Part shown: positions 19,616 through 60,239 of the stretch, one piece after another
Numbering within the stretch: the first letter of the stretch is position 1
Layout of the letters: the number at the start of each line of letters is the position of its first letter
NCBI RefSeq assembly: GCF_900102195.1
Contig: NZ_FNBE01000002.1
Coordinates: forward strand, 124,001-188,000
Source: Pseudonocardia oroxyli
GTDB taxonomy: Bacteria; Actinomycetota; Actinomycetes; Mycobacteriales; Pseudonocardiaceae
Length of the DNA: 64,000 bases
Direction: 5' to 3'
Notes under the pieces: model-generated
What the model saw: the letters and a program-made list of their open reading frames with translations, nothing else
Database searches by the model: none
Told to the model about the DNA's origin: nothing
Program-made: the position numbers and the translations under genes

Positions 19616-20742
19616 TGGTGGAGAAGAACGGGAAGGGGGCTCGGGTGCCGGAGGCACGCGTCATCCCGCTGCACGCCGACGACACGGGTGGGCGCACGCG
19701 GTGGCGGCTGGGGGCGGGGGAGACCCGTCCGCGGGGCCGCGCCGACCGCGAACCGTCCGGACGCGCCCGCCGTTCCGACGCGGGCACCTCGTCGTCCTCG
19801 AGCACCTCGAGGACGACGACCACGCCGCGCCCGCGGCCGCCCGCGGACGACGCGCCACCGCAGACGCCGCCGATCGCGGTCGTCCCGGACCCGGAGCCCC
19901 CGGCCTGGGAGTCGGCGCTGGAGTCGGCGCTGCGGTTCGTGCGGCGCAGGCTCGCGGGCGACTACCCGGTCGACGAGTTCGGCTACGACCCCGAGCTCGC
20001 CGAGTCCGTGATCGCCCCCGTGCTCCAGCCGCTCTACCAGCACTGGTTCCGGGTCGAGACGATCGGGATGCAGCACGTGCCGGACAGCGGCGGCGCCCTG
20101 ATCGTCGCCAACCACTCCGGCACCCTGCCGCTCGACGCGCTGATGACCATCCAGGCCCTGCACAGCGAGCACCCCGCGCGGCGGCGGCTGCGGCTGCTCG
20201 GCGCGGACCTGATGTTCCGGCTGCCGATCGTGGGCGAGCTCGCCCGCAAGAACGGCGCCACGCTGGCCTGCAACCCCGACGCGGAGCGGCTGATGGGCTC
20301 CGGGGAGCTCGTCGGCGTCTTCCCCGAGGGCTTCAAGGGGATCGGGAAGCCCTTCGCGGACCGCTACAAGCTGCAGCGCTTCGGCCGCGGCGGGTTCGTC
20401 TCGGCCGCGCTGCGCACCGGCGTGCCGATCATCCCGTGCTCCATCGTCGGGGCCGAGGAGACCTACCCGAAGATCGGCGACGTGGCGCCCCTGGCCCGGC
20501 TGCTGGGCGCGCCGTACTTCCCGATCACGCCGACCTTCCCGCTGCTCGGCCCGCTGGGTCTCGTGCCGCTGCCGTCGAAGTGGTACATCGAGTTCGGCGA
20601 GCCGATCGTGCTGGACCGCTACACCCCGGCGGACGCCGAGGACCCCATGCTCGTCTTCAACCTCACCGACCAGGTGCGCGAGACGATCCAGCACACGCTC
20701 TACCGGCTGCTGTCCCAACGCCGGAACGTCTTCCTCGGTTAG
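19615..20742 (+). CDS. lysophospholipid acyltransferase family protein (Rv0502-like)
   Basis: 375 residues. The first 95 are disordered, with Ser/Thr and Pro runs. The catalytic domain (about 130-370) has NHSGTLPLDA as the His-Asp acyltransferase motif and GVFPEGFKGIGK as the acceptor-binding FPEG motif, then PIIPCSIVGAEETYP. Same position as Rv0502. Probably a membrane-associated acyltransferase of glycerolipids. The stop TAG ends on the first base of a palindromic element. Confidence 0.85.
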   Translation: MVEKNGKGARVPEARVIPLHADDTGGRTRWRLGAGETRPRGRADREPSGRARRSDAGTSSSSSTSRTTTTPRPRPPADDAPPQTPPIAVVPDPEPPAWESALESALRFVRRRLAGDYPVDEFGYDPELAESVIAPVLQPLYQHWFRVETIGMQHVPDSGGALIVANHSGTLPLDALMTIQALHSEHPARRRLRLLGADLMFRLPIVGELARKNGATLACNPDAERLMGSGELVGVFPEGFKGIGKPFADRYKLQRFGRGGFVSAALRTGVPIIPCSIVGAEETYPKIGDVAPLARLLGAPYFPITPTFPLLGPLGLVPLPSKWYIEFGEPIVLDRYTPADAEDPMLVFNLTDQVRETIQHTLYRLLSQRRNVFLG

Positions 20743-24371: not shown

Positions 24372-25394
24372 TCATCGGAGCCCCTCCGGCATGAGCTGCG
24401 CCAGCCGACGGACGGCGCGGTGCTGGAGGGCCTTGACCGCGCCCTCCGCGCGGTTCATCCGCTCGGCGGTCTCGGCGACGGAGAGCCCCTGGAGGAAGCG
24501 CATCCGGATGCAGTCCTGCTGGTCGGCGTTGAGCTTCTCGATCGCCTTGAGCAGCTCGGAGTTCGTGGCGTTCTCGATGACCTGCTGCTCGGGGCCGTGC
24601 GTGGTCGGGGAGTGCTCGACCATGTCGGCCGTCGTGGACTCCAGTCGGTAGCGGCTGGACTTCACGTGGTCGAAGATCAGGTTCCGGGCGATGGTGACGA
24701 ACCACGCCCCGATGTCGCGGCCCTGGTAGCTGACCGACGAGATGCGGCGCAGCGCGCGCAGGAAGGTCTCCTGGGTGAGGTCCTCGGCCAGGGTGCGGTC
24801 ACCCAGCCGGAACAGCACGTACCGGAACACGACGTCCTGGTACCGCGCGTACAGCTCGCGGAACGCGTCCTGGTCGCCCGCCTGGCAGGCCTTGACCAGG
24901 ACCCAGCTGCCCATGGACTCGTCGTTGGGGTCCGGCATGGCCTGGGCCTGCGGGGCCTGGGTGGCCTCGGGGGCCTGCGCGGCCTGCGGCGGCTGCGTCC
25001 GACCCGGCGGCGGTCCGCCCGCGGGCGGCCGTCCCTGGACGGGCGGCGCCTGCGGCCGCGAGAAGGGAGGAGCGACGGGGGGAGCGGTCACGGGCGCCTG
25101 CCGGGGAGTGGGCCGACCGTCCACCGCCGCGCGGCCGAGGCTCGCGGTGGCGGTGTGGTCGGGCTGGGCCGGGGGAGCGGAGGTCTCCGGGGTACCGGGG
25201 ACGACGTCGGCGGGGGTACCGGGCGGCGGGGCCGCGGGGAGCTCGGCCCCGCCCGCGCCGGTGCGGGCCACGCCGGGTCCGACCTGCCTGGGCAGGCCGG
25301 ACCACGCCGCGGAACCCCGTCCGGAGGAGACCTGACCCGCGGAGCCGAACCGCTCCACCGGGAGCAGTCCCTCGGGTCGCATCGAGGAGGTCAT
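24372..25394 (-). CDS. bldN: BldN-like ECF RNA polymerase sigma factor with a long N-terminal extension
   Basis: About 340 residues from ATG 25394; no good ribosome site marks the start, and ATG 25382 is equally possible. The first 165 residues are Pro/Ala/Gln-rich. The rest is an ECF core: sigma2 DAFRELYARYQDVVFRYVLFRLG with LAEDLTQETFLRALRR, then sigma4 LNADQQDCIRMRFLQGLSVAETAERMNRAEGAVKALQ (positions about 270-330). Spelling of both regions follows Streptomyces BldN, which is also made with a leader that is cleaved off. Followed after 226 bp by the membrane anti-sigma candidate. Confidence 0.85.
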   Translation of the reverse strand: MTSSMRPEGLLPVERFGSAGQVSSGRGSAAWSGLPRQVGPGVARTGAGGAELPAAPPPGTPADVVPGTPETSAPPAQPDHTATASLGRAAVDGRPTPRQAPVTAPPVAPPFSRPQAPPVQGRPPAGGPPPGRTQPPQAAQAPEATQAPQAQAMPDPNDESMGSWVLVKACQAGDQDAFRELYARYQDVVFRYVLFRLGDRTLAEDLTQETFLRALRRISSVSYQGRDIGAWFVTIARNLIFDHVKSSRYRLESTTADMVEHSPTTHGPEQQVIENATNSELLKAIEKLNADQQDCIRMRFLQGLSVAETAERMNRAEGAVKALQHRAVRRLAQLMPEGLR

Positions 25395-25745
25395 GAAGCC
25401 TGGGCGACCCGGTCGCGAAGGGCGGGACCGGGGCGGCACCCGGGAACCCGCGGTGCGCCGGCGACAGACTGCATGCCACTCCCTTGGGTGAGGTCTCGTG
25501 CCGTTCCCGCAGGAGCGGCGTTGGAAGGTTGTGGGGGTGGACCCTAGGGGAGCCCGGCGCCACCACCGAGGGCGCCACCGCTCGCCGAGTCTCTTATCCG
25601 GTGAGCGGACGGTCACGCGCGGTCAACGTGGTGGTAGCGCAGTGTGTCCGGTCGATCGCACCGAATCGGGCGTGTCGGCGCACCGTCGGGCGCATGCCCC
25701 TTGCGCCCTACGGCCCCGCCCCGCAACGCCACTAGTCTTGCCGGG
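25395..25745. other. 351-bp divergent intergenic region between the sigma factor and acyl-CoA ligase genes
   Basis: No gene is evident. The only signal I can support is TAGTCT at 25733-25738 for the rightward gene. No BldN-type box was seen for the sigma gene itself. Confidence 0.5.
25733..25738 (+). promoter_or_regulatory. -10 box of the acyl-CoA ligase gene
   Basis: TAGTCT, 7 nt before GTG 25746; leaderless geometry. Confidence 0.45.
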
Positions 25746-29805: not shown

Positions 29806-29832
29806 CGGCGGGCGACCACCGGTCGCCCGCCG
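29806..29832 (+). terminator. hairpin after the fasciclin gene
   Basis: Perfect 12-bp stem CGGCGGGCGACC / GGTCGCCCGCCG with a 3-nt loop, 37 bp past the stop. Confidence 0.65.
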
Positions 29833-34590: not shown

Positions 34591-34637
34591 ACGAACGGCG
34601 CGTTCGCTCCTACCTGGTGAGCGAACGCGCCGTTCGT
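34591..34637. repeat. 47-bp palindromic element, family C, copy 1
   Basis: Perfect 19-bp arms ACGAACGGCGCGTTCGCTC and GAGCGAACGCGCCGTTCGT around a 9-nt loop (ctacctggt). Lies 12 bp after the hemD stop, between convergent genes, and can serve as a terminator in both directions. Confidence 0.88.
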
Positions 34638-51655: not shown

Positions 51656-51723
51656 CGCCTCCGGCGCTCGTGAGTGGTAAGTGGTGCCAGAGCACCACTT
51701 ACCACTCACAGGCGCCGGAGGCG
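51656..51723. repeat. 68-bp palindrome between menB and menE
   Basis: Inner arms GTGAGTGGTAAGTGGTGC and GCACCACTTACCACTCAC (51670-51687, 51692-51709) are perfect with a 4-nt loop. Outer arms of 14 bp (CGCCTCCGGCGC core) pair with two mismatches. It ends 4 bp from the menB stop and could end or attenuate the menB-menE message. Confidence 0.85.
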
Positions 51724-53047: not shown

Positions 53048-53076
53048 TTGACCGGTGACGTGTCGCATGCCACTCT
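53048..53076 (+). promoter_or_regulatory. promoter and operator of the GntR/FadR-type gene
   Basis: TTGACC (53048-53053), 17 nt, CACTCT (53071-53076). The bases 53063-53074, GTCGCATGCCAC overlap the spacer and -10 box and match the palindrome GTGGCATGCCAC at 11 of 12. The same arrangement recurs at 53808-53836. Confidence 0.5.
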
Positions 53077-53100
53077 CGCCGACGAGCCGGTGGGAGGCCC

Positions 53101-53811
53101 ATGAAACCCCTGCGGGAGACGACGAGTGTCAACGCACAGGTGCTCTCCGCCCTGCGCGCCGCGGTGATCAGCGGGGAGCTCGCACCCGGGAGTCTCTACT
53201 CGGTCCAGACCCTCGCGACCCAGCTGGGCGTGTCCCGGACGCCCGTCCGCGAGGCGCTGATCAAGCTCGCGCAGCAGGGCATGGTGCGCTTCGAGCGCAA
53301 CCGCGGGGTCCGGGTGCTGCTCACCAGCCTGCACGACCTCGAGGAGGTCTTCGCGCTGCGGCTGCTGCTCGAGCCGGCGGCCACCCGACGCGCCGTCGAC
53401 CGGCTGGACGCCGCCCAGCTCAAGGAGCTGCGGCGCACGTTCGCGCACATGGAGAAGGCCGCGAAGTCCGACGACGAGTTCACGATGTTCGAACACGACC
53501 GCCGCTTCCACCGGGTGCTGCTGGAGGCGGCGGGCAACGCCCGGCTGGCCGGGATCGTCGACGGCCTGCGGGACATGGTGCTGCGCCGCGGCGTGTCGAC
53601 CGCGCGGGAGTCCCGCAGCCTGGACGACATCGTCGCCGAGCACCGGGTGATCCTCGACCTGGTCGAGGACGGGGACGCGGTCGGCGCGGCGGAGGCGATG
53701 CGCGCGCACGTGGAGCACACCGCGGCCCTGCTGATCGCGCAGGAGGCGGGCGGCGAGCCCGTCGACGTCGACCTCTCCTGGACGACAGGTGCGGTGATGC
53801 GCACGAATTGA
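53101..53811 (+). CDS. GntR family regulator, FadR/FCD subfamily
   Basis: 236 residues. Winged helix at about 10-75 (LATQLGVSRTPVREALIKLAQQGMVRFERNRGVRV) and an all-helical FCD ligand domain (about 85-220) with metal-ligand candidates in EHDRRFHRVLLEAAGN and EHRVILDLVEDGD. ATG 53101 with GGGAGG upstream. Palindromic sites at its own promoter and at that of the lactonase gene make it the likely repressor of the 53.9-59.4 kb cluster. Confidence 0.88.
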   Translation: MKPLRETTSVNAQVLSALRAAVISGELAPGSLYSVQTLATQLGVSRTPVREALIKLAQQGMVRFERNRGVRVLLTSLHDLEEVFALRLLLEPAATRRAVDRLDAAQLKELRRTFAHMEKAAKSDDEFTMFEHDRRFHRVLLEAAGNARLAGIVDGLRDMVLRRGVSTARESRSLDDIVAEHRVILDLVEDGDAVGAAEAMRAHVEHTAALLIAQEAGGEPVDVDLSWTTGAVMRTN

Positions 53812-53836
53812 CGAGTGGCATGCCACATGCCACGGT
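53808..53836 (+). promoter_or_regulatory. promoter and operator of the lactonase gene cluster
   Basis: TTGACG (53808-53813), 17 nt, CACGGT (53831-53836). The spacer holds the perfect 12-bp palindrome GTGGCATGCCAC (53815-53826). Both this promoter and the one at 53048 begin with GAATTGAC, so the regulator should control both. Confidence 0.55.
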
Positions 53837-53871
53837 GTCACCGCCCACCCCTCAGTGCCGAAGGGACCATC

Positions 53872-54684
53872 GTGGCCACTGCGAACCGAGTCTCCGTGAT
53901 CCCGTGCGGAGCCATGACCGCCGACCTGACCTGGCTGCTGCTCAAGCCGGGTGTGAGCATCAAGCCCCGCCAGGAGAAGGGGTCCCCGATCGACTGGGTC
54001 GACGTCCCGACGCACTGCGTGCTCGTCGAGACCGACGAGGGGAAGCTCCTGTGGGACACCTCCTGTCCGGCCGACTGGGAGGAGCGCTGGGGCCCGACGG
54101 GCCTGCAGGACTTCTTCCCCTACGACAAGGCCGGGCCGGACGACTACCTCGACTCCCGGCTGAACCAGATGGGCGTCGGCCTGGACGAGATCGACTACGT
54201 CGTGCTCTCGCACCTGCACTTCGACCACGCGGGCAACGCGAACCTGTTCAAGAACACCCACGCGAAGATGGTGTGCTCGGACAAGGAGAAGGAGTTCGCG
54301 CTGAACTTCGAGGGCGACTTCAACGGCGCGCACCTCAAGGCGGACTACGAGGGCCTGAACTGGGAGACCGTCAGCGGTGACGTGGACTTCCTGCCCGGCG
54401 TCAAGCTGATCCAGACGCCCGGGCACACCGTCGGCTGCATGTCCATGCAGGTCGACCTGCCGGACACCGGGACGATGATCTTCACCTCGGACGCGGTGTA
54501 CATGGGGGACAGCTACGGCCCGCCCGCCGCGCCCGCCGCGATCGTGAACAACCTGGAGCAGTGGTTCAGCTCGGTGGAGAAGCTGCGCGGTATCCAGGAG
54601 CAGACCTCCGCGCAGATGATCTTCGGGCACGACGCGAACCAGATCCACGAGCTGCGCAAGGCGCCTGAGGGGTCCTACACGTGA
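53872..54684 (+). CDS. metallo-beta-lactamase-fold lactonase (N-acyl homoserine lactonase family)
   Basis: 270 residues, GTG start after AAGGGA. Complete dinuclear metal site: HLHFDH (His114, His116, Asp118, His119), His185 in TPGHTVGC, Asp207 in FTSDAV and His253 in FGHDAN. AiiA/BlcC-type lactonases open homoserine lactones or gamma-butyrolactone. In this cluster a gamma-lactone yielding a hydroxyacid for the next enzyme is the likely substrate, which is inference. 4-bp overlap with the next gene. Confidence 0.85.
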   Translation: MATANRVSVIPCGAMTADLTWLLLKPGVSIKPRQEKGSPIDWVDVPTHCVLVETDEGKLLWDTSCPADWEERWGPTGLQDFFPYDKAGPDDYLDSRLNQMGVGLDEIDYVVLSHLHFDHAGNANLFKNTHAKMVCSDKEKEFALNFEGDFNGAHLKADYEGLNWETVSGDVDFLPGVKLIQTPGHTVGCMSMQVDLPDTGTMIFTSDAVYMGDSYGPPAAPAAIVNNLEQWFSSVEKLRGIQEQTSAQMIFGHDANQIHELRKAPEGSYT

Positions 54685-55979
54685 CGAGCTTCGAGGTACC
54701 CGAGCTGACCGAGGAGACGATCTTCACCTGGGGTGCGCCGCCCCTGAAGTTCGGCGCGGGCGCCATCGACGAAGTCGGCTTCGAGCTGACCGCGTACGGC
54801 GTCAAGCGGGTGCTGATCGTCACCGACCCGGGGGTCAACGCCCTCGGCGCGCCCCAGCGCCTGGCGGACACCCTCAAGCGCTACGACATCGACTCTGAGA
54901 TCTTCGACGGCGTGCACGTCGAGCCGACCGACGACTCGATGAACAAGGCGACCGAGTACGCCCGGGTGCAGGGGCCGTGGGACGGGTTCGTGGCCGTCGG
55001 CGGCGGGTCCGCGATCGACACGGCCAAGGCCATCAACCTGCTGACCAGCCACCCCGGCGAGCTGATGGACTACATCAACAAGCCGATCGGCAACGCGAAG
55101 GTCCCGCCGGGGCAGCTCAAGCCCCTGATCGCGGTCCCGACGACGGCGGGCACCGGCTCGGAGTCCACCGCCATGTGCGTGTTGGACATCCTGTCGATGA
55201 AGGTCAAGACGGGGATCAGCCACTGGCGCCTGCGCCCGACCCTGGCCGTGATCGACCCGCTGCTCACCATGACGCTCCCGCCGGAGGTCACGGCGGCGGC
55301 GGGGATGGACATCACCTGCCACGCGGTGGAGAGCTACACGGCGCGGTACTACACCACGTTCGACCGCAAGAAGCCCGAGGAGCGGGTCACCTACTGCGGC
55401 TCGAACCCGGTCTCGGACCTGTGGTGCGAGAAGGCGATGACCCTGCTGGCCAAGAGCTTCCGCAACGCCGTGCACCGCGGCGCGGACGACCTCGAGGCCC
55501 GCTCGGACATGATGATGGCCGCGACGTTCGCGGGCATGGGGTTCGGCAACTCCGGGGTGCACATCCCGCACGCGAACGCCTACCCGATCGCGGGCATGGT
55601 CAAGGACTACGTCCCGGACGGCTACCCGCCGGACGAGCCGATGGTCCCGCACGGGCAGTCGGTGTCGCTGACCGCGCCGGAGGCGTTCCGGTTCTCCTTC
55701 GAGTCGGCGCCCGAGCGGCACCTTCGCGCGGCGGAGCTCATGGACCCGCGGGCCGACACCCACAACGACCCCCGCGAGCAGCTGCCGAGCGTGCTGACCC
55801 GGCTGATGCAGGACATCGGGATCCCCAACGGGATCGGCGGCGTCGGCTACACCGAGGCGGACGTCCCGGACCTGGTGCCCGGCACGATGAAGCAGCAGCG
55901 CCTGCTCGCCACGTGCCCCAAGGTCCCGACCGAGGACGACATCGCCGACATCCTCACGAAGTCCATCCAGAACTGGTGA
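54681..55979 (+). CDS. iron-dependent alcohol dehydrogenase, hydroxyacid-oxoacid transhydrogenase (HOT/ADHFE1) type
   Basis: 432 residues. It follows human HOT along its length: KFGAGAIDEVG, VEPTDDSMNKATEYA, FVAVGGGSAIDTAKAINL, PLIAVPTTAGTGSE, SNPVSDLWCEKAM, MVPHGQSVSLTAPEAF and the end EEDIADILTKS. Candidate metal ligands are Asp210, His214, His297 and His324. HOT oxidises 4-hydroxybutyrate to succinic semialdehyde while reducing 2-oxoglutarate to D-2-hydroxyglutarate, without free NAD. Methanol dehydrogenase (Mno) was considered and fits less well. Confidence 0.85.
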   Translation: MTSFEVPELTEETIFTWGAPPLKFGAGAIDEVGFELTAYGVKRVLIVTDPGVNALGAPQRLADTLKRYDIDSEIFDGVHVEPTDDSMNKATEYARVQGPWDGFVAVGGGSAIDTAKAINLLTSHPGELMDYINKPIGNAKVPPGQLKPLIAVPTTAGTGSESTAMCVLDILSMKVKTGISHWRLRPTLAVIDPLLTMTLPPEVTAAAGMDITCHAVESYTARYYTTFDRKKPEERVTYCGSNPVSDLWCEKAMTLLAKSFRNAVHRGADDLEARSDMMMAATFAGMGFGNSGVHIPHANAYPIAGMVKDYVPDGYPPDEPMVPHGQSVSLTAPEAFRFSFESAPERHLRAAELMDPRADTHNDPREQLPSVLTRLMQDIGIPNGIGGVGYTEADVPDLVPGTMKQQRLLATCPKVPTEDDIADILTKSIQNW

Positions 55980-55982
55980 CCC

Positions 55983-56022
55983 GTGAGCGGCGATGGTCGC
56001 CATGGCGACCATCGCCGCTCAC
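55983..56022. repeat. 40-bp perfect palindrome, family A, copy 2
   Basis: Arm GTGAGCGGCGATGGTCGCCA and its exact complement, with no loop. It starts 3 bp after the stop of the transhydrogenase gene, inside the operon. It differs by two bases from the element at 8471-8510. Confidence 0.9.
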
Positions 56023-56041
56023 GACCCCGGAGAGGCCTCGA

Positions 56042-56536
56042 ATGCCGATCTACGTGTTCCGTTGTGAGTGCGGGACCCGCTTCGAGCACCTGACGTCGAT
56101 GACCTCGACCGACGCACCCGGCTGTCCGCGGTGCGGGGGTGCCACCACGAAGGTGCCCGCCGGGTTCTCGCTCGGTGGGCAGGCGAGCCCCGGCCTGTCG
56201 AAGGACGAGATGCCCCAGACCTGGAAGGGCGTCTACAACGGGAACTCCGAGTACATCGACTCCATGCGCCGCAGCTGGGACTCCCGGCAGAAGCTCGAGG
56301 AGAAGTACCCGGAGATCGCGGGCGACCAGCGGCCGATCCTGGCCCACGAGGGCCGCTACCACGACGCGCCGCTGCGCGCGGGGGACATCCAGCTCTCCGG
56401 CACCGCACCCGTCCCGGGCGCCAAGGCCCACGGGCACAGCCACGGTCATGGGCACGGTCATGGGCACGGTCATGGGCACGGCCACGCCGAGCCGACGCCC
56501 GCGTCGAGCCCCGACCCGGCGCCGACGTCAGACTGA
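56042..56536 (+). CDS. FmdB-type zinc ribbon protein with a His-Gly tail
   Basis: 164 residues. N-terminal ribbon MPIYVFRCECG ... GCPRCGG (Cys8, Cys10, Cys28, Cys31), then YNGNSEYIDSMRRSWDSRQKLEEKYPEIAG, a conserved extension. Residues about 129-148 alternate His and Gly (a 12-bp DNA repeat), a likely metal-binding tail. FmdB proteins accompany C1 and amide enzymes; a role in metal delivery to the iron enzyme upstream is speculation. Next gene starts 5 bp after the stop. Confidence 0.8.
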   Translation: MPIYVFRCECGTRFEHLTSMTSTDAPGCPRCGGATTKVPAGFSLGGQASPGLSKDEMPQTWKGVYNGNSEYIDSMRRSWDSRQKLEEKYPEIAGDQRPILAHEGRYHDAPLRAGDIQLSGTAPVPGAKAHGHSHGHGHGHGHGHGHGHAEPTPASSPDPAPTSD

Positions 56537-56541
56537 GGCCC

Positions 56542-59409
56542 GTGACCGCGCTCGAACCCACCACCACGACCGACGCCGCCGCAGCCCTGGCCGCCGACCT
56601 GCAGAGGGTCGTCGGCGGGGAGGTGCGCTTCGACCCGGCGCACCGCGCGATGTGGTCGGCGGACGCGTCGAACTACCGCAAGGTGCCGATCGGGGTCGTG
56701 CGCCCGCGCGACGCGGCGGACGTCGAGGCCGCGCTCGCGGTGTGCCGGGAGCACCAGGTCCCCGTGCTCCCGCGCGGCGCGGGCACCTCGATCGCGGGCC
56801 AGGCCGTGAACACGGCGGTGGTGCTGGACTTCACCCGGCACATGAACCGCATCCTGGAGATCGACCCGGAGGCCCGCACCGCCCGCGTCGAGCCGGGGGT
56901 GATCTGCGACCAGCTGCGAGACGCCGCCGCCCCGCACGGCCTGACGTTCGGCCCCGACCCCAGCACGCACAACCGCTGCACGATCGGCGGGATGATCGGC
57001 AACAACGCGTGCGGGTCGCACTCCGTGGCCTGGGGCAAGACGGTCGACAACACCGTCCGGCTCGAAGCCCTCACCTACCGCGGCGAGCGGATCGACACGC
57101 GGGACGCCATGCCCGCCGCGCTGCTGGCCCTGCACGAGCGCATCGGCCCCCGCATCGCCGAGACCTTCCCCGACCTCACGCGCCGGGTGTCCGGCTACAA
57201 CCTCGACCAGCTGCCGCACGACCTGGCGAAGGCGATGGTCGGGTCCGAGGGCACCCTCGCCGTCACGACGGCCGCGACCATGCGGCTCGTCGAGTCCCCG
57301 CCCGCCCGGGCCCTGGCCGTCCTCGGCTTCGAGTCGGCGTACGTCGCCGCGGACAACGTCATGGTGGTCCGCGAGCACGCGCCGCTGACGATCGAGGGCA
57401 TGGACTCCGGGCTGATCGCCGCCCTGCGCGCGCAGGACCCGGTGTCCACCAGCTGGCGCGCGCTGCCCCCGGGCGGGGGCTGGCTCTACGTCGAGACGGG
57501 CGGGGCGGACAAGGCCGAGGCGCGGGCCAAGGCCCAGGCCATCGCCGCGGCGATGAAGCCCTACGGCCTCACCGAGGCCATCGTCGAGGACGACGCGGCC
57601 CGGATGAAGGCGTTATGGCGCATCCGCGAGGACGGCGCCGGGATCCTCACCCGCAGCCCGGACGGCGGCGAGGCGTGGCCCGGGTGGGAGGACGCGGCCG
57701 TCCCGCCCGAGCGGTTCGGCTCCTACCTGCGCGAGTTCGACCGCGTCCTGGAGCGGCACGGCCGCAAGGGCGTGTACTACGGCCACTTCGGCGACGGCTG
57801 CCTGCACGTCCGGATCGACTTCGACCTGCTCACCGAGCCCGGGGTCGCCAACTTCCGGGCCTTCATGGAGGACGCGGCGGACGCCGTCGTCGCCCACGGC
57901 GGCTCGCTGTCGGGGGAGCACGGGGACGGGCGGGCCCGCTCCGAGCTGCTGCCGCGGATGTACCCGCCGGACGTCATCGCCGCGTTCGAGGAGTTCAAGG
58001 GGATCTTCGACCCGGACGACCGGATGAACCCCGGCTGCATCGTCCGCTCGGCCCGGCTGGACGAGGACCTGCGGATCTTCATGGGCATGCCGGCGCTCGG
58101 CACCCCGGCGCTCGGGTTCACCCACGACCGGGGCGAGTTCGGTCGGGCGCTGCGCCGCTGCCTGGGCGTCGGCAAGTGCGTGACGAGCCACGGCGGCGTG
58201 ATGTGCCCCAGCTACCGCGCCACCGGCGACGAGCAGCACTCCACCCGCGGCCGCGCGCGGCTGCTGTTCGAGATGGCCAACGGCGAGGTGGTCACCGGCG
58301 GCTTCCAGGACGACGACGTCGCCGACGCGCTGGACCTCTGCCTGTCCTGCAAGGGCTGCAAGACCGACTGCCCGGTCGGCGTGGACATGGCCGCCTACAA
58401 GACCGAGTTCCTGGCGCAGCGGTACCGCAACAAGCTGCGTCCGGCGTCGCACTACTCGATGGGTGCGTTGCCGCGGTGGATGCGGCTGGTCGGGAAGCTG
58501 CCGGCGAGCGCCGTCACCGGGCTCAACGCGCTCGCCCGGGTGAAGCCCCTCGCCGCCCTCGCCAAGCGGGTCGGCGGGATCGCGCCGGAGCGCGAGATCC
58601 CGGCGATCGCGCCCGAGACGTTCACCACCACCGCCCGCGCCCGGGCGCTGGAGACCGCGGTGCGGCCCGCGCCGCGGGGGCGCCTGCTGCTCTGGCCGGA
58701 CACCTTCACCGACCACTTCGACCCGTCCATCGCCGAGGACGCCGTCGCCGTCCTGGAGTCCCTCGGCTACGGCGTCGAGCTGCCGCCGCGCACCGTCTGC
58801 TGCGGGCTGACGTGGACCTCGACCGGCCAGGTCGGCGCCGCCCGCCGGGTGCTGCGGCGCTCGCTGCGCACGATCGCGCCGTGGGTGGAGCAGGGGGTGC
58901 CGGTGGTCGGCCTCGAGCCGTCCTGCACCGCCGCGCTGCGCACCGACGCCGAGGAGCTGCTGCCCGACGAGCCGCTGGTCGCCGCCCTCGACGTCCGCAC
59001 CTTCGCCGAGCTGCTCGCCGAGCACACCGACGAGCTTCGCGAACGCGTCTCCGGCGGCGCGCGGGCGCTCGTGCAGCTGCACTGCCACCAGTACGCCGAC
59101 CTCGGCAGCGAGGCCGACCGCGCGGTCATGGCCGCGCTCGGCATCGAGGCGGAGGTGCTGGACTCCGGGTGCTGTGGGCTCGCGGGCAACTTCGGGTTCG
59201 AGAAGGGCCACTACGAGGTCTCGATGGCGGCCGCCGAGCGGGTGCTGCTGCCCGCCGTCCGCACCGCGGACCCGGACGTCGCGGTGATCGCGGACGGATT
59301 CTCCTGCCGCACCCAACTCCGCCAGGCGGGGACCAGAGAGCCGGTACACCTCGCCCGGATGGCGGCACAGGCGCTCGGCCTGAGGGCCGAACTTCGCCCT
59401 GACGGGTGA
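56542..59409 (+). CDS. FAD-linked oxidase fused to Fe-S subunit, D-2-hydroxyglutarate dehydrogenase (YdiJ)-like
   Basis: 955 residues. PCMH-type FAD domain (about 30-210: VLPRGAGTSIAGQAVN, TIGGMIGNNACGSHS), FAD-oxidase C domain (KGVYYGHFGDGCLHVRIDFDL, GSLSGEHGDGRARS), then 4Fe-4S motifs CLGVGKC and CLSCKGCKTDCPVG (about 538 and 599) and two CCG domains (CCGLTWTSTGQ near 752, CCGLAGNFGFEKG near 876). This architecture is that of E. coli YdiJ, which oxidises D-2-hydroxyglutarate, the by-product expected from the upstream transhydrogenase. Codon 358 is TTA, rare here. Confidence 0.85.
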   Translation: MTALEPTTTTDAAAALAADLQRVVGGEVRFDPAHRAMWSADASNYRKVPIGVVRPRDAADVEAALAVCREHQVPVLPRGAGTSIAGQAVNTAVVLDFTRHMNRILEIDPEARTARVEPGVICDQLRDAAAPHGLTFGPDPSTHNRCTIGGMIGNNACGSHSVAWGKTVDNTVRLEALTYRGERIDTRDAMPAALLALHERIGPRIAETFPDLTRRVSGYNLDQLPHDLAKAMVGSEGTLAVTTAATMRLVESPPARALAVLGFESAYVAADNVMVVREHAPLTIEGMDSGLIAALRAQDPVSTSWRALPPGGGWLYVETGGADKAEARAKAQAIAAAMKPYGLTEAIVEDDAARMKALWRIREDGAGILTRSPDGGEAWPGWEDAAVPPERFGSYLREFDRVLERHGRKGVYYGHFGDGCLHVRIDFDLLTEPGVANFRAFMEDAADAVVAHGGSLSGEHGDGRARSELLPRMYPPDVIAAFEEFKGIFDPDDRMNPGCIVRSARLDEDLRIFMGMPALGTPALGFTHDRGEFGRALRRCLGVGKCVTSHGGVMCPSYRATGDEQHSTRGRARLLFEMANGEVVTGGFQDDDVADALDLCLSCKGCKTDCPVGVDMAAYKTEFLAQRYRNKLRPASHYSMGALPRWMRLVGKLPASAVTGLNALARVKPLAALAKRVGGIAPEREIPAIAPETFTTTARARALETAVRPAPRGRLLLWPDTFTDHFDPSIAEDAVAVLESLGYGVELPPRTVCCGLTWTSTGQVGAARRVLRRSLRTIAPWVEQGVPVVGLEPSCTAALRTDAEELLPDEPLVAALDVRTFAELLAEHTDELRERVSGGARALVQLHCHQYADLGSEADRAVMAALGIEAEVLDSGCCGLAGNFGFEKGHYEVSMAAAERVLLPAVRTADPDVAVIADGFSCRTQLRQAGTREPVHLARMAAQALGLRAELRPDG

Positions 59410-59448
59410 ACCTTTCGCCCCGTCGACTCGTGACCGTAATGAGACCGA

Positions 59449-59468
59449 CCGACTTCGCGAGAAGTCGG
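59449..59468 (+). terminator. hairpin after the FAD/Fe-S gene
   Basis: CCGACTTC-GCGA-GAAGTCGG, perfect 8-bp stem with a 4-nt loop, 40 bp after the stop; probable end of the cluster. Confidence 0.5.
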
Positions 59469-59513
59469 ACAACGGGCCCAGGACGGGACCAGACCGAGGC
59501 GGGGGCTGACGGG

Positions 59514-60239
59514 ATGACGATCGTGGCGGAGCAGCACCGGACCGGGACCTTCGGGCCGGTCGGGGCGGATGCCGAGCTCACGGCTCTGCTCGGGCTGGTG
59601 GTGGCGAGCGCCGGGGTGGGCGCCGCGGCCGTGGAGGTCGGGGCCACCCCGGGACACGAGGTCGCCCGCTGGGGCGTCCTCGGGCCGAAGGTCGTCCGGG
59701 TGCCGCTGCGCTACGGCAACGAGTTCGTGGGATCGCTCGTCGTGCCGACGGTGGGTCACCGGCCGCACCTGCTCGCGGCCGTCGCCGCCCGGCTCGCCGC
59801 CGGGCTGCGGTCCCACGTCGTCGCCCGGTCCGCCGAGCGGGCCCGCGCTGATCTCGTCCCGCTGGAGGACGGGCTGACCGCCGCGCTGTACCGGGCGGCT
59901 CGGGGTGCGGCCGTCGAGGTGTGGCCGTTGCCGGTGATGGGCGCGCAGGTCGAGTCGGCGGCCGCGTCGATCGCCACCGAGGCACTCGCCAACGCCGCCC
60001 GGCACGCCCCGGGGGCGCCCGCCCGCGTCCGGGTCCGGGTGCGCGGCCCGTACCTGGAGGTCCAGGTCACCGACGAGGGTCCCGGTCTGCCTGCGGATTT
60101 CGTCGCGGGCAGCGGCGTCCCGGCCATGCGCGGCCGGGCCGCCGCGGTCGGCGGCACCTGCGTGGTCCGTCGCTCGGTGACCGGGACGCTGGTCGAGGCC
60201 ATGCTCCCGCTGGGCCCGCACATCCCGTTCCCGCGGTGA
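59514..60239 (+). CDS. orphan histidine-kinase-like ATPase domain protein
   Basis: 241 residues from ATG 59514; a GTG at 59406 overlapping the previous stop is the alternative, but a hairpin lies between. The C-terminal half is a NarX/UhpB-type HATPase: TEALANAARHAPGAPARV (N-box), VQVTDEGPGLP and GSGVPAMRGRAAAVGG. The region before it lacks a dimerisation/phospho-His helix. It may be an anti-sigma-like or partner-dependent kinase fragment. No response regulator is adjacent. Confidence 0.72.
   Translation: MTIVAEQHRTGTFGPVGADAELTALLGLVVASAGVGAAAVEVGATPGHEVARWGVLGPKVVRVPLRYGNEFVGSLVVPTVGHRPHLLAAVAARLAAGLRSHVVARSAERARADLVPLEDGLTAALYRAARGAAVEVWPLPVMGAQVESAAASIATEALANAARHAPGAPARVRVRVRGPYLEVQVTDEGPGLPADFVAGSGVPAMRGRAAAVGGTCVVRRSVTGTLVEAMLPLGPHIPFPR

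Follow-up and report, generated by a model that had tools for sequence, protein, structure and literature searches.

A probable gamma-lactone catabolic operon in Pseudonocardia oroxyli built around a transhydrogenase and D-2-hydroxyglutarate recycling

In Agrobacterium, gamma-butyrolactone is degraded by the products of blcABC (attKLM), a lactonase, an alcohol dehydrogenase and a succinate-semialdehyde dehydrogenase; to our knowledge, this cluster holds no gene for a transhydrogenase, a D-2-hydroxyglutarate dehydrogenase or an FmdB protein. Mammalian hydroxyacid-oxoacid transhydrogenase (HOT) is reported to couple gamma-hydroxybutyrate oxidation to 2-oxoglutarate reduction using a tightly bound cofactor, and the HOT subfamily cd08190 is described as occurring in bacteria and archaea (PMC5125639). 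The propionate shunt of Caenorhabditis elegans combines a HOT (ADHFE1/HPHD-1) acting on 3-hydroxypropionate with a D-2-hydroxyglutarate dehydrogenase (DHGD-1) (PMC10096224), while in Achromobacter the GntR-family protein DhdR is reported to repress the D-2-hydroxyglutarate dehydrogenase (D2HGDH) gene and to respond to D-2-hydroxyglutarate (PMC8651671). Here we analyse a 64,000-nucleotide stretch of Pseudonocardia oroxyli (contig NZ_FNBE01000002.1, positions 124,001 to 188,000; hereafter ‘the window’, numbered from its first base), in which five closely spaced, co-oriented genes on the + strand (53101-59409) probably constitute a regulated operon for the catabolism of a gamma-lactone, most likely gamma-butyrolactone, via HOT and D-2-hydroxyglutarate recycling.

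The first gene encodes a GntR/FCD-type transcriptional regulator (53101-53811, + strand) in which both the GntR helix-turn-helix (PF00392, 58.4 bits; cut-off 27) and the FCD domain (PF07729, 102.9 bits; cut-off 24.3) are present. It is followed on the same strand by genes for a metallo-beta-lactamase-fold lactonase (53872-54684; PF00753, 77.6 bits), a HOT-type iron-containing dehydrogenase (54681-55979; PF00465, 151.3 bits), an FmdB-type zinc ribbon with a conserved extension and a His-rich tail (56042-56536; TIGR02605, 42.4 bits, cut-off 31.3; PF09723, 44.8 bits, cut-off 34.4) and a YdiJ-like dehydrogenase with flavin adenine dinucleotide (FAD) and iron-sulfur (Fe-S) domains (56542-59409; PF02913, PF01565, PF13183 and PF02754), with all matches above cut-off. 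The five co-oriented genes recognized in the initial annotation of this stretch are thus each backed by a Pfam match, whereas the start given there, 53048, falls in the leader. The lactonase and HOT genes overlap by 4 bp, and 5 bp separate the FmdB and FAD/Fe-S genes. Although the lactonase frame is open from a GTG at 53815, that position is the first base of a palindrome described below and GAAGGGA precedes the GTG at 53872, so that the latter is the likely start.

Phylogenetic analysis places the window dehydrogenase within a HOT clade of 47 sequences (support 1.0), apart from other iron dehydrogenases, in a FastTree phylogeny of 57 sequences that included two others from this genome, where six places match the family, but no eukaryotic HOTs. 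The ten sequences outside the clade are FucO, EutG, YqhD, four plain iron dehydrogenases, the two paralogues and a Peribacillus protein named HOT by the NCBI Prokaryotic Genome Annotation Pipeline (PGAP). A position outside the clade, which the initial annotation had named in advance as fatal to its proposal, is therefore not what we find. The clade matches the NCBI name hydroxyacid-oxoacid transhydrogenase, as do the annotations of the three nearest plasmid relatives (63-78% identity) and of 17 of the best 40 plasmid records, which reach the haloarchaea at 33-38%; Rhizobium relatives at about 35% are, where annotated, plain iron dehydrogenases. Both the NAD (nicotinamide adenine dinucleotide)-binding GGGS at 107-110 and the metal ligands D210, H214, H297 and H324 are conserved and, across 35 aligned sequences, invariant except S110 (90% or more). 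The HOT clade additionally carries two inserts (228-238 and 309-321), the first containing Arg235, which is kept in at least 46 of the 47 members and in 0 of the 10 outgroup sequences, and which may help to bind 2-oxoglutarate. No NCBIfam equivalog model reaches its cut-off on this protein, the Cupriavidus 4-hydroxybutyrate dehydrogenase model scoring 196.8 bits against a cut-off of 500.

With free NAD+ as acceptor, the conversion of primary alcohols to aldehydes is uphill. In the operon as we read it, the lactonase would open gamma-butyrolactone to 4-hydroxybutyrate, and the HOT-type enzyme, with NAD bound as a hydride relay, would convert this to succinic semialdehyde while reducing 2-oxoglutarate to D-2-hydroxyglutarate. 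The FAD/Fe-S dehydrogenase would then regenerate 2-oxoglutarate and pass the electrons on, probably to quinone and presumably into the respiratory chain, while an aldehyde dehydrogenase encoded outside the operon would yield succinate. The alcohol would in this way be oxidized without free NAD+, with D-2-hydroxyglutarate as a recyclable carrier whose drainage through a flavin enzyme would pull the reaction forwards. The observed genes, their order, clade membership, active-site residues, neighbours and operator co-occurrence support this pathway, proposed in the initial annotation, as a working model that is likely to hold, its every reaction, substrate and electron path being something that we infer from sequence.

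The genes neighbouring HOT point to 4-hydroxybutyrate as its substrate. Plasmid pPSED02 of Pseudonocardia dioxanivorans CB1190 (L101) has genes for the regulator, HOT and FAD/Fe-S dehydrogenase in this order, with an EthD-like gene and genes for an aldehyde dehydrogenase and a monooxygenase running divergently from them; the tetrahydrofuran/dioxane monooxygenase genes thmADBC are reported on this plasmid (PMC5743803). Plasmid pYYL1.1 (L128) of Rhodococcus ruber YYL, described as a tetrahydrofuran degrader (PMC4429620), carries the same annotated set, in which an IS1380 transposase separates HOT from the regulator. The two plasmids (L101 1-13122 and L128 4322-19122) share a cassette of approximately 13 kb that is 99.5-99.7% identical over 7.8 and 5.3 kb, split at the transposase; we consequently count them as one case, and the identity speaks for a recent exchange between Pseudonocardia and Rhodococcus. 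The accepted tetrahydrofuran route has gamma-butyrolactone or gamma-hydroxybutyraldehyde as an intermediate on the way to gamma-hydroxybutyrate and succinate (PMC7758286). Among 17 listed plasmid loci, all named HOT, a lactonase adjoins HOT in four (Deinococcus wulumuqiensis, two Haladaptatus and Halobacterium hubeiense); these lactonases are 28.6-30.2% identical to that of the window and keep the HxHxDH motif. On pSTJ001 of H. hubeiense (L252 3162-6660), genes for the lactonase, HOT and an NAD-dependent succinate-semialdehyde dehydrogenase are consecutive, an archaeal candidate for the whole route. The tetrahydrofuran cassette and the Deinococcus and haloarchaeal lactonase-HOT pairs thus lend support to the substrate first guessed for this locus.

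The same machinery might instead serve a different substrate, be it a lactone or a hydroxyacid (gamma- or delta-valerolactone, 3-hydroxypropionate or 2-hydroxyethoxyacetate), which HOT would oxidize while handing the hydride to 2-oxoglutarate. In C. elegans the HOT orthologue reportedly uses 3-hydroxypropionate (PMC10096224), the dioxane degrader Mycobacterium dioxanotrophicus has a plasmid on which paired HOT and FAD/Fe-S genes are found next to glyoxylate genes, and the P. oroxyli genome has no close tetrahydrofuran monooxygenase. We nevertheless consider another substrate unlikely, given the HOT gene of the tetrahydrofuran cassette and the fact that 4 of the 17 plasmid loci have an annotated succinate-semialdehyde dehydrogenase close to HOT, three of these loci being among those without an adjoining lactonase. 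Growth of this strain on tetrahydrofuran itself was considered and rejected, the best match to the monooxygenase alpha subunit in a genome search being 44%. On the M. dioxanotrophicus plasmid (L129 6646-23006), the HOT and FAD/Fe-S genes overlap by 4 bp and are accompanied by genes for a succinate-semialdehyde dehydrogenase, glyoxylate carboligase and glycerate kinase; HOT may act there in dioxane breakdown.

To place the arrangement in a wider context, we compared 80 named loci, 53 class-wide HOT loci and 394 genomes of the class, including that of the window. The 53 derive from 56 HOT places after exclusion of the window, one genome already covered as another locus (G050, as L039) and one partial match (G355), and up to 4 (HOT), 6 (lactonase) and 11 (FmdB) first-look candidates were scored per genome. 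Both locus sets include near-identical or related genomes, so that counts are not independent events, and many contigs end before the five-gene order could show. Under strict thresholds, the order regulator-lactonase-HOT-FmdB-FAD/Fe-S is shown by 20 of the 80 named loci, every one of them from Pseudonocardia, and by 2 of the 53 class-wide loci (L190 and L193), both from another family, with dehydrogenases 64-65% identical. The genome search suggested in the initial annotation therefore does find the five-gene order elsewhere, and the order is not a product of chance, though the 20 named loci represent one genus. The nearest named relatives of the dehydrogenase are likewise from Pseudonocardia, where it is found at E <= 1e-60 in 31 of 35 other genomes. 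Near HOT in the named loci, lactonase, FmdB and FAD/Fe-S genes are all present in 26, lactonase and FmdB without FAD/Fe-S in 27, the lactonase alone in 1 and no lactonase in 26; an Actinomycetota bog genome (L106) retains lactonase-HOT-FmdB-FAD/Fe-S at 55-76% identity.

The pairing of HOT with the FAD/Fe-S gene extends further than the full order. Of the 53 class-wide loci, 31 carry an FAD/Fe-S gene of this family no more than 6 kb from HOT, in 29 cases downstream on the same strand. These 31 loci come from five families: 24 from f41 and the rest from f1, f31, f34 and f54. Many f41 loci have, near HOT, genes that by eye resemble RNA-polymerase and ribosomal genes, for which reason the f41 pairings may reflect one single event. 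Further pairs occur in Blastococcus loci and, with a 4-bp overlap, on the Mycobacterium plasmid. A hotdog-thioesterase-like gene, identified by eye, recurs beside HOT at seven loci (L211, L216, L224, L231, L232, L235 and L043) and an annotated thioesterase adjoins it in L131, perhaps marking another HOT pathway.

The FAD/Fe-S protein clusters with Escherichia coli YdiJ (support 1.0; 28% identity), apart from GlcD, in a tree that omits L050, L051 and L122 and retains some reading frames that align poorly, L151_5492 for example. YdiJ is reported to be strict for D-2-hydroxyglutarate (PMC9504171). Human D2HGDH residues R386, H434, H441, E475 and H476, which contact zinc, the C1-carboxyl and the C2-hydroxyl, correspond to R362, H415, H422, E459 and H460 of the window protein, but GlcD has them too and they do not discriminate. 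At the C5-carboxylate site (human T390, K401, Y432 and N443), the window protein has A, W, Y and R, YdiJ has V, A, F and R, and GlcD has F, C, V and L, the 401 column being hard to align. Position 443, Asn in the human enzyme, is described as hydrophobic in GlcD and most D-lactate dehydrogenases (PMC7801405), and the window protein shares its Arg there with YdiJ. The C5-site residues give a mixed picture, in which it is likely that the substrate carries a second carboxylate and probable that the protein is a D-2-hydroxyglutarate dehydrogenase. The Arg argues against a preference for lactate or glycolate, the contrary outcome foreseen in the initial annotation, although the protein could still have one.

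The lactonase, whose nearest solved relatives are quorum-quenching GcL-type lactonases (E ~1e-43), carries the HxHxDH metal motif as SHLHFDH. At E <= 1e-50 it is found in 7 of the 394 class genomes, all of which have HOT, adjoining in 6; the first 115 residues of the FmdB protein, used as query at E <= 1e-12, retrieve the same 7. In the remaining genome (G424), lactonase and HOT lie on separate contigs and FmdB adjoins the lactonase. FmdB is likewise present in 53 of 54 named lactonase loci (the exception, L098, has a 30% match) and in 5 of 5 class-wide ones, while of the loci without a lactonase it occurs in 1 of 26 named ones (L122, with a contig start inside HOT) and in none of the 48 class-wide ones. 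Because FmdB tracks the lactonase across genomes and loci, we take the lactonase to be its partner, which it probably serves, perhaps by delivering metal; at least 8 His are found in the tail of 22 of 60 FmdB proteins. The initial annotation rightly listed the FmdB gene but gave it no role, and it emerges here as the constant companion of the lactonase.

Several observations weigh against a HOT-based lactone pathway. An FAD/Fe-S gene of this family is missing within 6 kb of HOT in 22 of the 53 class-wide loci, and 27 of the 80 named loci have lactonase-HOT-FmdB with no such gene nearby. In 13 of the 17 plasmid loci no lactonase adjoins HOT, a record end hiding one side in L247. The YdiJ model NF049975 gives 455.8 bits, below its equivalog cut-off of 1350, which is why we call the protein YdiJ-like rather than YdiJ; Tyr432 is the one human C5-carboxylate residue retained, Lys401 aligning with Trp; the same Arg occurs in related proteins beside other genes (L158-L161); and a 54% paralogue is encoded elsewhere in the genome. 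The lactonase itself scores below the AhlS (156.3 of 475 bits), AiiA (116.6 of 375) and AttM (104.7 of 390) cut-offs. Finally, the operon has no succinate-semialdehyde dehydrogenase gene and, of 18 aldehyde dehydrogenases in the genome that match TIGR01780, none is above cut-off (best 573.6 of 646.35), so that the ‘complete cycle’ of the initial annotation was too strong a description.

Loci without a nearby FAD/Fe-S gene would fit an ordinary NAD-dependent 4-hydroxybutyrate dehydrogenase working with the lactonase, as in Agrobacterium blc, with the FAD/Fe-S protein clearing D-2-hydroxyglutarate or another D-2-hydroxyacid from elsewhere. The intact GGGS motif and metal ligands, and the Cupriavidus model score, would be equally at home there, but that score falls far short of its cut-off, the HOT clade is distinct and the pairing of HOT with the FAD/Fe-S gene recurs, and we judge this arrangement quite improbable. 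A signal-destroying operon, the alternative raised from the outset, in which acyl-homoserine lactones or A-factor-type butyrolactones would be the targets of the lactonase, would suit the quorum-quenching relatives of this enzyme and AhlS as its top NCBIfam match, but with the cut-offs of all three signal-lactonase models missed, HOT adjoining in six of seven genomes, a lactonase accompanied once, on the H. hubeiense plasmid, by a succinate-semialdehyde dehydrogenase, and no positive support found (signal genes were not searched for), we regard it as very improbable.

Control of the proposed lactone-catabolic operon may be exerted through the palindrome GTGGCATGCCAC, of which an exact copy, the proposed operator, lies 5′ of the lactonase gene (53815-53826) and a one-mismatch copy lies 5′ of the regulator gene (53062-53073). 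The window on its own proves nothing in this respect, since about one copy is expected per window by chance: the 10-base core with one mismatch is found twice, against a chance mean of 1.05. In a survey of 84 loci (1.295 Mb), any copy with at most one mismatch was counted as a site. Of the 25 loci that have the regulator, most of them close relatives, 23 carry a site between this gene and the one after it, versus 1 of 59 loci without the regulator (matching zone), and 3 other matches occur in the 1.295 Mb surveyed; 11 of the 25 also have a site 5′ of the regulator gene. Each of the two sites from the other family (L190 and L193) has two mismatches, the L190 copy remaining a perfect palindrome. 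Plasmids pPSED02 and pYYL1.1 have one-mismatch sites after the regulator gene and in the divergent region, with two-mismatch sites immediately 5′ of the annotated EthD start of pYYL1.1; given these positions, both strands of the tetrahydrofuran cassette may be controlled. Genome-wide, 53815-53826 is the only exact copy. A genome-wide regulon was considered but is not supported, there being 9 places with at most one mismatch, 7 of them outside the operon, versus 19 for the backwards control. We propose GTGGCATGCCAC as the probable binding site of the GntR protein, from which an intermediate would release it, a direction of regulation that is presumed. The palindrome and the co-occurrence of FmdB with the lactonase are additions beyond the initial annotation.

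Upstream of the operon, on the opposite strand, are genes for an ANTAR-like protein and MenB-like and MenE-like proteins (by eye). Downstream on the + strand come a histidine-kinase-type ATPase gene (59406-60239), which has a 4-bp overlap with the FAD/Fe-S gene, and a gene for an aldo/keto reductase; relatives of the ATPase (48-54%) follow the FAD/Fe-S gene in L050, L051, L053 and L124. Between the HOT and FmdB genes lies a 20-bp perfect hairpin without a T-run (55982-56023), one of five such perfect hairpins in the window with a stem of at least 12 bp (the others at 51670-51709, 34591-34637, 19789-19819 and 29806-29832), against 0, 0, 1, 0 and 0 in five triplet shuffles. A perfect stem of at least 11 bp, varying in sequence, occupies the HOT-FmdB gap in 23 of 54 loci and none where the gap is below 20 bp. 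These hairpins are perhaps tail-less terminators or a repeat family. ARAGORN additionally reports a transfer RNA of unassigned type with a four-base anticodon, gcga, at 25329-25417 on the - strand.

Taken more broadly, we tentatively put forward a joint proposal, to which we give a little less than an even chance: that prokaryotes breaking down lactones and cyclic ethers use D-2-hydroxyglutarate as a purpose-made, recyclable electron carrier; that HOT and the YdiJ-like enzyme work as a dedicated couple, independent of NAD, in several families of actinobacteria and on plasmids, with lactonase-HOT pairs reaching Deinococcus and haloarchaea; and that the His-tailed FmdB subfamily is the metal-delivery partner of the lactonase. 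If so, a compound mostly viewed as a by-product or oncometabolite would here be a deliberate redox carrier, and these enzymes would also account for the 4-hydroxybutyrate step in the breakdown of tetrahydrofuran, a step for which an incomplete literature search did not find HOT named, although the original CB1190 papers may mention it. The proposed operator makes regulation testable, and an FmdB-family protein gains a defined partner. In agreement with the initial annotation, we found no prokaryotic operon of this kind among titles and abstract openings, a literature that leaves out most subscription papers; the enzymes are of known kinds, in an arrangement we did not find described.

Each of the closest known systems shares a part of this arrangement. 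As in the C. elegans shunt, an ADHFE1-type enzyme would use a hydroxyacid as hydride donor for 2-oxoglutarate, and D-2-hydroxyglutarate would be recycled by a second enzyme; the shunt, as presented in its source, differs in operating in animal mitochondria on 3-hydroxypropionate, with no operon or lactonase, and its dehydrogenase is a D2HGDH orthologue not named there as YdiJ-like (PMC10096224). The blc system likewise degrades gamma-butyrolactone by way of a lactonase, but the AttM/BlcC-type model scores 104.7 of 390 bits on the lactonase of the window. E. coli YdiJ (PMC9504171) matches the window protein in combining FAD and Fe-S domains in one chain and in the shared Arg, and differs in its low identity and in the missed equivalog cut-off. 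The Achromobacter DhdR-D2HGDH pair likewise links a GntR-family protein to a D-2-hydroxyglutarate dehydrogenase gene, a likeness at the level of the family, and is reported to have no adjacent hydroxycarboxylic-acid gene (PMC8651671). The thm cassette of pPSED02 and pYYL1.1 lacks lactonase and FmdB genes and carries monooxygenase and aldehyde dehydrogenase genes on its other strand, but it keeps the regulator, HOT and FAD/Fe-S genes in the order of the window, at 67%, 78% and 69% identity, respectively, on pPSED02.

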